Shown one piece after another: positions 24,045 through 29,569 of a DNA stretch of 64,000 bases. The DNA lies in the NCBI RefSeq assembly GCF_001029505.1, contig NZ_LEKH01000001.1:248001-312000 (forward strand), read 5' to 3'. Position 1 is the stretch's first letter, and each line of letters starts with the position of its first letter. The position numbers were made by a program, and so were the translations under genes. The stretch is from Rubrobacter aplysinae. Its GTDB lineage: Bacteria; Actinomycetota; Rubrobacteria; Rubrobacterales; Rubrobacteraceae. Under the pieces are notes generated by a model. The model was not told the origin of the DNA. It was given only the letters and a program-made list of their open reading frames with translations, and did no database searches.

Positions 24045-24833
24045 ATGGGGCTGACCGTCAGGATAATACCCTGCCTCGACGTCGACGCCGGGCGGGTCGT
24101 GAAAGGTACCCAGTTCGAAAACCTCCGTGACGCCGGGGACCCGGTCGAGCTCGCCGCCCGCTACGACGCCGCAGGGGCGGACGAGATCGTGTTCTACGAC
24201 ATCACCGCCTCGGCGGAGCAGCGGGACACGGCGACCGCCCTCGCCCGTGCGGCCGCGGAAGAGGTCTTCATCCCGTACACGATAGGCGGGGGGGTGCGTA
24301 CCCCGGACGACATGCGCTCCATGCTGCGCGCGGGTGCGGACAAGGTCTCCATAAACTCCGCCGCCGTGCGGACGCCAGAGATAATAGACGAGGGCGCGGC
24401 CCGCTTCGGCAGCCAGTGCGTAGTCCTCAGCGTGGACGTGAAGCGCAGCGAGAGCGACGAAAGCATCGGAGAACGGCCTGAATCCCCGCCGAGCTGGGAG
24501 GTGTACCTCAACGGTGGTCGGGTAAACACGGGCCTGGACGCCGTCGAGTGGCTCGTAGAGGGCGAGCGTCGCGGGGCCGGGGAGTTCGTGCTGAACAGCA
24601 TGGACTCCGACGGCATGGAAACCGGCTACGACCTGGACCTGATCTCCGAGGTCGCCGCCCGCACAGAGGCCCCGATCATAGCCTCCGGTGGGGCCGGCAG
24701 CCCGGAGCACATGGTCGCGGCCGTGAAGGCCGGCGCGGGGGCGGTGCTGGCCGCCAGCATCTTCCACTTCGGTGAGTACACGATAGCGGACGTAAAACAC
24801 GAGCTGGACGCGGCGGGGATACCCGTTAGATGA
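24045..24833 (+). CDS. hisF: Imidazole glycerol phosphate synthase subunit HisF
   Basis: HisF is the cyclase subunit that, with HisH, makes IGP and AICAR in histidine synthesis. The barrel shows IIPCLDVDAGRVVKG near residues 6-20 with the first catalytic Asp. NSMDSDGMETGYDLDL near 185-200 carries the second. The phosphate-binding IASGGAGSPEHMV follows. Length is 262 residues. HisH and the earlier his genes are not in this window. Confidence 0.96.
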   Translation: MGLTVRIIPCLDVDAGRVVKGTQFENLRDAGDPVELAARYDAAGADEIVFYDITASAEQRDTATALARAAAEEVFIPYTIGGGVRTPDDMRSMLRAGADKVSINSAAVRTPEIIDEGAARFGSQCVVLSVDVKRSESDESIGERPESPPSWEVYLNGGRVNTGLDAVEWLVEGERRGAGEFVLNSMDSDGMETGYDLDLISEVAARTEAPIIASGGAGSPEHMVAAVKAGAGAVLAASIFHFGEYTIADVKHELDAAGIPVR

Positions 24834-27266: not shown

Positions 27267-27280
27267 AAAGAGCATAGAAA

Positions 27281-27315
27281 AGAGCCGCCGCGCATTACGA
27301 AGACGCGGCGGCTCT
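27281..27315 (-). terminator. Intrinsic terminator of the selenoprotein glutaredoxin gene
   Basis: AGAGCCGCCGCG (27281-27292) and CGCGGCGGCTCT (27304-27315) form a perfect 12-base-pair stem. On the minus strand the stem is followed by TTTTCT, a proper terminator tail 15 bases after the glutaredoxin stop. A T-run only on the minus side shows its direction. Confidence 0.85.
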
Positions 27316-27329
27316 TGCGCTGGGGGTGG

Positions 27330-27566
27330 CTAGAGTCCTAGCTTCTCGCTGATCTTCTGCTGGTCGAAGCCTATTATGACCTCGCCGTCTATAACGGTCG
27401 TCGGGGTGGCCTGAGAGTTCATCGCGACCATCTCCTGCATGGCGTCGAGGTCGCTGCGGATGTCCTTCTCCGTATACTCCACGCCGTTTCGAGATAGAAA
27501 CTCCATCTCCTGGTGGCAGGAGGGTCAACCGGGCTGGTGGTAGACAACCACTTCGTGGTCGGCCAT
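27330..27566 (-). CDS. Glutaredoxin-like selenoprotein (Sec encoded by in-frame TGA)
   Basis: From ATG at 27566, with AAAGGAG 5 bases upstream, the frame runs 78 codons to TAG at 27330. Codon 14 is TGA (27525-27527). The product is a glutaredoxin/NrdH-like thiol-redox protein: strand VVVYHQPG, then U14-P-S-C17 in place of CxxC, and later ATPTTVIDGEVIIGFDQ, the cis-Pro and GSH-site region. TGA replaces exactly the catalytic first Cys. A SECIS-like hairpin follows (see 27491-27509). Otherwise it would be a glutaredoxin gene killed by a nonsense change. Its own strong terminator and intact frame argue that it is alive. Confidence 0.8.
27491..27509 (-). promoter_or_regulatory. Candidate bacterial SECIS element
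   Basis: On the minus strand GAGATGGA and TCTATCTC pair over 8 base pairs (one G-U) around the loop GTT. The loop G is the 24th base after the TGA at 27525-27527. Bacterial SECIS rules ask for a short stem-loop 16-37 bases after UGA with a G at the start of the loop, often GU, and this fits. SelB would bind the loop. Confidence 0.7.
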
Positions 27567-27766
27567 ATCTGCTCCTTTGCGATTACTACATTGCGGTTCC
27601 AATGCTATCACCCGTATGGGCTACACTAACCGCCGTGTCTACGGGGGAGGAGAAAAATCGTAAACGCTGAACGCGTAAGGGCAAAGGTCACCTCGGCGTC
27701 TGGGACCCGACCGGAGGGGAGCGCCGGGAGGGGAGTGGTCTGCCGGTCGATCAGGGCGCGGAAGAG

Positions 27767-28749: not shown

Positions 28750-28917
28750 GCTGCTGTGAGGCGCCACGATACGAAAGGCCGGTCTGGCGGCTTTCGCGGG
28801 CTCGCGAGCTCCGTAGCGTGAGCCTTACTCGCTGGGGATCTGGAGCCGCCGGCGTCCCGGTCCGGGGCGTGACTCCGAAGGGCCTTGATGCGGCGGGCCA
28901 AAGCGTTTGTGGTCCGT

Positions 28918-28923
28918 TATACT
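28918..28923 (+). promoter_or_regulatory. -10 hexamer TATACT for leaderless plsY
   Basis: TATACT ends 7 bases before the plsY ATG at 28931. A start of transcription at the usual distance would fall on the ATG, giving a leaderless mRNA. No ribosome binding site precedes the ATG. Confidence 0.5.
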
Positions 28924-28930
28924 CAGCGGC

Positions 28931-29569
28931 ATGTTGGCAGTAATCCTTGTATTGATCGGGTATCTGGTAGGGGCCATCCCCACGGGTTATCTGGTGTGCC
29001 GGGCGCTCGGGGTGGACCTGCGCACGGTCGGCAGCGGTAACATCGGCACGGCGAACGCCTACCGGGCGGCGGGGAAGAAGGCTTTCGTCGCCACCCTGGT
29101 CGGTGATCTGCTCAAGGGCCTCGCGCCGGTCGTTTTCGCCCGGTTGCTCACGGACAACGACTGGGTAGTGGCGGCGGTGGCTCTCGCCGCGTTAATCGGG
29201 CACTGCTGGCCGGTGTATCTCGGGTTCAAGGGGGGCAAGGCCGTGGCGACCGCCGCCGGCACCTCGATAGGGCTCGCCCCGCCGGTCGGCCTCCTGATGT
29301 TCGTGGTGTGGTGGGCCGTGGTGCTGGTCAGCCGCTATACCTCGCTGGCTGCGCTGGTGCTGGCCGTGATCGGACCCTTGCTGTTTATCGTCACCGGGCA
29401 GCCCGTGGCCTACCTGGTGTACGCGGCCTGCGCCTGCATCCTGATAGTCGAGCGTCACAAGGGCAACGTGAAGGCGCTCTTGAACGGCACCGAAAGAAAG
29501 TTCGGAGCCTCTAAATCCGGAACATCCCGTACGTCTAAAACATCCAAGAGTCCCGCCGGAAAGGGTTGA
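28931..29569 (+). CDS. plsY: Glycerol-3-phosphate acyltransferase PlsY
   Basis: PlsY transfers an acyl group from acyl-phosphate to glycerol-3-phosphate in the membrane, the first step of phospholipid synthesis. From ATG 28931 it has 212 residues with about five to seven hydrophobic helices. The motifs VGSGNIGTANA and LGFKGGKAVATAAG are both present. A TTG at 28907 would add eight residues but overlaps the -10 hexamer. The C-terminus is a Ser/Thr/Lys repeat tail. It lies just before an acyl-CoA reductase-like gene. Confidence 0.93.
   Translation: MLAVILVLIGYLVGAIPTGYLVCRALGVDLRTVGSGNIGTANAYRAAGKKAFVATLVGDLLKGLAPVVFARLLTDNDWVVAAVALAALIGHCWPVYLGFKGGKAVATAAGTSIGLAPPVGLLMFVVWWAVVLVSRYTSLAALVLAVIGPLLFIVTGQPVAYLVYAACACILIVERHKGNVKALLNGTERKFGASKSGTSRTSKTSKSPAGKG

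Follow-up and report, generated by a model that had tools for sequence, protein, structure and literature searches.

Within the window, by which we mean the whole 64,000-nucleotide stretch of Rubrobacter aplysinae DNA analysed here, the minus strand carries a short gene whose reading frame is interrupted by an in-frame TGA (Table 1). The conceptual translation of positions 27566-27330 on the minus strand reads MADHEVVVYHQPG*PSCHQEMEFLSRNGVEYTEKDIRSDLDAMQEMVAMNSQATPTTVIDGEVIIGFDQQKISEKLGL*, and the TGA at codon 14 (27527-27525) is the sole internal stop in the 78-codon frame, just as the initial annotation of this DNA had claimed; it opens, as was also proposed there, a UxxC motif, here UPSC. 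The flanking signals named in that annotation are present as well: a ribosome-binding site, AGGAG, at 27576-27572, and, after the stop, a terminator-like element, recovered by folding as a 13-bp hairpin with a T-rich tail. A promoter and terminator scan of the region listed nothing, and the terminator-like hairpin is missing from this simple scan, with its loop limit of 8, because the loop is 11 nt long. The gene's neighbours in the window are trpE, a CorA-like gene and plsY, a neighbourhood that offers no clue to the substrate. Judged by motif, plsY (window positions 28907-29569) also lies near several of the orthologues described below.

Table 1. Features of the predicted selenocysteine (Sec) glutaredoxin locus, in window coordinates.
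Feature	Position	Strand	Remarks
Predicted Sec-glutaredoxin gene	27330..27566	minus	78 codons; ATG 27566-27564; TAG stop 27332-27330
In-frame UGA, predicted selenocysteine	27525..27527	minus	codon 14; first residue of UPSC
Ribosome-binding site AGGAG	27572..27576	minus	from sequence; ATG five bases downstream
Intrinsic terminator-like hairpin	~27276..27316	minus	13-bp GC-rich stem, 11-nt loop, T-rich tail; from sequence and fold
Bacterial SECIS apical hairpin (predicted)	27491..27509	minus	8-bp stem; GUU loop whose first base is the 24th after the UGA
Possible extended SECIS, lower stem	27477..27522	minus	CUCCUGCC paired with GGCG.GGAG; conservation lower than in the apical stem

With Cys placed at the UGA, the protein matches the Pfam Glutaredoxin family PF00462 (E 3.3e-12; 46.9 bits against a cut-off of 22.9), which bears out its earlier description as glutaredoxin-like. 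The best NCBIfam model, scored with the same substitution, is the YruB-family glutaredoxin-like model TIGR02196, and at 70.2 bits against a curated cut-off of 88.55 we do not assign the protein to that family. Four Uxx-star models, built for glutaredoxin-like (seleno)proteins (NF041212, NF041211, NF041114 and NF047338), match weakly across most of the protein and all score below cut-off, the best being NF041212 at 54.8 against 66; the mycoredoxin (TIGR02200, 38.4 against 89.5) and NrdH redoxin (TIGR02194, 36.4 against 85.75) models were rejected on the same grounds. The sequence features by which a bacterial Sec-glutaredoxin is recognised (PF00462 plus UxxC) are found here, namely the domain, a UGA at UxxC with Cys homologues, a candidate SECIS after the UGA (loop GUU, 23 nt), and selA, selB, selC and selD in the genome.

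All four of these sel genes are present in the same genome assembly (3.19 Mb, 33 contigs), including selB and selC, on whose presence the initial annotation had staked its reading. A tRNA-Sec gene with a UCA anticodon lies at G000:C5:185230 (61.1 bits with the Rfam model, over the cut-off); because the Rfam search matches ordinary tRNAs too, we take the anticodon reported by ARAGORN as the deciding evidence. The genes for SelB (317.6 bits; NCBIfam cut-off 242) and SelA (488.6 bits; cut-off 268) directly adjoin the tRNA-Sec gene in one cluster. SelD (353 bits) has an in-frame TGA of its own, in YSTKAG*ASKFSP, at the expected active-site position, and a search for selenoprotein genes among named families also returned two formate-dehydrogenase-like genes, each with an in-frame TGA followed by His. 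These further candidate selenoprotein genes are L067 (selD) and L071 and L072 (the formate-dehydrogenase-like pair), on contigs C22 and C4 of genome G000. Since the machinery is accompanied by TGA codons in selD and both formate-dehydrogenase-like genes, the genome is, judged from its sequence, that of a Sec user with at least four candidate selenoprotein genes. For R. xylanophilus, use of Sec with five selenoproteins (PMC1794560) and a tRNA-Sec (PMC5330540) had been reported earlier.

Homologues were sought in 61 genomes and in public genome contigs, and matches were translated through their match coordinates. Some loci are common to both searches by contig (L019 and L039, for example), and we therefore take the Rubrobacteraceae count from the genome search alone. 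The same codon is TGA in another 13 orthologues from Rubrobacteraceae (L038, L039, L040, L042, L043 and L045-L052), and in a Chloroflexi (L025) and a deltaproteobacterial (L026) genome; L054, L055, L059, L061 and L062 are more distant Sec homologues. Within the family, L041, L044 and L053 have Cys (TGC or TGT) at the homologous position, as do homologues from Bacillaceae, Methanocalculus and others. The alignment at position 14 that the initial annotation had proposed as a check thus holds Sec or Cys. Two loci, L056 and L057, do not enter the counts: in one frame their alignment starts no earlier than residue 24, a second stretch lies in a different frame, and both resemble an L053-type Cys gene that has suffered a frameshift.

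This distribution bears directly on the proposal that the TGA is a true nonsense mutation in a pseudogene, or a misread TGC or TGT. Relatives with Cys codons at the same place (L041, L044 and L053) speak for such a slip, but many genomes, each sequenced on its own, carry TGA at the homologous codon, and the sequencing error that the initial annotation had allowed for is thereby ruled out. At the same time, the codons 3' of the UGA are under purifying selection (dN/dS after the UGA of 0.12-0.47 against the gap-free, comparable Rubrobacteraceae UGA orthologues), and a hairpin tied to the TGA and the full Sec machinery of the genome likewise argue against a broken or misread gene. We consider both forms of this explanation refuted by the conservation of the TGA, and their probability very small.

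The hairpin itself was found as the initial annotation had described it, on the minus strand with an 8-bp stem and a GTT loop: GAGAUGGA-GUU-UCUAUCUC at 27509-27491, the loop being separated from the UGA by 23 nt. A SECIS directly after the UGA is a feature described for a Sec-glutaredoxin in PMC1088965. We compared hairpin stability with that in 400 codon-preserving (synonymous-codon) shuffles, taking the best apical hairpin of each homologue. In the window sequence the apical hairpin has p = 0.005, and the 57-nt fold has p = 0.018. When 48 nt are folded, a competing hairpin (CUCCUG/CAGGAG) has the lowest energy; extending the input to 55 nt makes the SECIS fold the minimum, at -21.3 kcal/mol. 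A hairpin is present in 21 of 21 UGA homologues, its loop 20-23 nt after the UGA and a G as the first or second base of the loop. Among the near Rubrobacteraceae UGA orthologues, most shuffle p values are 0.015 or less, and the weaker UGA cases are L039 (0.09), L062 (0.085), L050 (0.10), L025 (0.2), L059 (0.44), and L055 and L061 (0.12-0.18). For the 12 Cys homologues, p runs from 0.34 to 1.0, and most of them are without a comparable hairpin. The SECIS candidate, in other words, accompanies UGA and not Cys. Across 18 UGA sequences, 88% of the stem cells are paired, 8 of them with two-sided changes, a level of covariation reached in none of 500 shuffles and lying above every slid register; because the shuffle control ignores relatedness, we regard this as support for a SECIS rather than proof. 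The lower helix is poorly kept, with 67% of cells paired across sequences.

An alternative that would leave the gene intact is that the UGA is a true stop, with a shorter protein made from Met21, or that it is read as Trp, Cys or a similar residue. There is indeed an ATG at codon 21, but many homologues have Val, Thr or Lys in place of Met21, and a protein starting there would lack the active site. Nor is TGA a general sense codon, because it terminates ordinary nearby genes (24045-24833 and 28907-29569), and a UGA-reading tRNA-Sec is present. Downstream restart and a general UGA sense code are rejected on these points, and we regard them as very improbable. The reading of the codon-14 UGA as selenocysteine, first predicted in the initial annotation, is almost certain and is supported by the sel machinery, the kept TGA and the UGA-linked hairpin.

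We are highly confident that the product is a glutaredoxin-fold selenoprotein that would depend on SelB/SECIS decoding and carry out Sec14/Cys17 exchange, and less confident that it is recycled by thioredoxin reductase. In the general bacterial scheme, SECIS-bound SelB brings Sec-tRNA(Sec) to the UGA (PMC9312934). Here, Sec-tRNA(Sec) would be made by SelA with selenophosphate from SelD, and SelB, on the hairpin just 3' of the UGA, would deliver it; the machinery and the signal for this decoding are both seen in the sequence. Translation would then pass codon 14 with Sec inserted and continue to the TAG. By analogy with the family, Sec14 of UPSC would attack a protein disulfide and Cys17 would resolve it, in a dithiol-type exchange. 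The oxidised protein would most likely be recycled by thioredoxin reductase, not glutathione, a step we put forward with lower confidence.

The assignment of thioredoxin reductase as the probable partner is an inference of moderate strength. We prefer it because a thioredoxin reductase is encoded in the same genome, because two Sec homologues, L026 (3001-3850) and L061 (1501-2350), each have a thioredoxin-reductase-like gene directly downstream, an arrangement that hints at the redox partner, and because, in a survey whose genomes include R. xylanophilus, non-actinomycete actinobacteria other than Acidimicrobium are reported to lack the mycothiol pathway (PMC4255298). The selenoprotein might instead be coupled to glutathione or another thiol, as the Pfam Glutaredoxin match would allow and as the title of a work cited in PMC13188914, on a C. 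oremlandii glutaredoxin solved with bound GSH and GSSG, would suggest; the adjoining thioredoxin-reductase-like genes and the reported lack of mycothiol genes in this part of the actinobacteria stand against such coupling, which we think unlikely. Going beyond thioredoxin reductase as the partner in this one genome, we suggest tentatively, and with some doubt, that the Rubrobacteraceae-wide Sec-glutaredoxin is a redoxin that needs neither glutathione nor mycothiol and is supplied by thioredoxin reductase, and that Sec and Cys have been exchanged in it repeatedly at one residue while the Sec machinery was kept.

Among proteins of solved structure, Clostridium oremlandii Grx1 (cGrx1; PDB 7c10, 7c12 and 7c13) is nearest in sequence: it matches over residues 4-78 (E 2.1e-17 for 7c10), is of similar length, carries U(C)PxC at the same position and is a native selenoprotein according to its authors (PMC7642778). 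The two differ in lineage, cGrx1 having a Clostridium host, and in partner, since Sec-MsrA is proposed for cGrx1 and the partner of the Rubrobacteraceae protein is one we infer. More broadly, Sec-glutaredoxins (UxxC, PF00462) have been on record from the Sargasso Sea study (PMC1088965) onwards and are included in two later surveys (PMC1794560, PMC13188914), with members from the Sargasso Sea, Geobacter sulfurreducens, Alkaliphilus and Moorella; the glutaredoxin domain, the UxxC motif, the SECIS directly 3' of the UGA and the Cys homologues are shared with the protein described here. The Rubrobacteraceae protein is a further example of this family, and it is less novel than the initial annotation implied, because UxxC Sec-glutaredoxins were already known. 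In the available parts of the same three papers we found no glutaredoxin selenoprotein for Rubrobacter, R. xylanophilus being given only as having five selenoproteins, and in the literature searched we found no paper naming a Sec-glutaredoxin in Rubrobacteraceae, where others may already have annotated one. The finding thus adds a conserved Sec-glutaredoxin to Rubrobacteraceae. Standard gene calling would shorten or overlook this 78-residue protein, and other selenoproteins are likewise at risk.

The best tree of the homologues has five Sec/Cys changes, and its well-supported branches force only two. The close Cys orthologues L041 and L044 (genomes G002 and G022) have a weakened hairpin and still have selB in the genome, and their sequences likely record a recent change from Sec to Cys. 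Cys relatives that retain selB (G002, G022 and G008) offer a natural comparison for the benefit of selenium in a small redox protein. Rubrobacteraceae also hold a second, more distant group of UGA-containing glutaredoxins (L054, L059 and L062, in genomes G018, G029 and G012), with ULFC or UVPC motifs and a hairpin 3' of the UGA.
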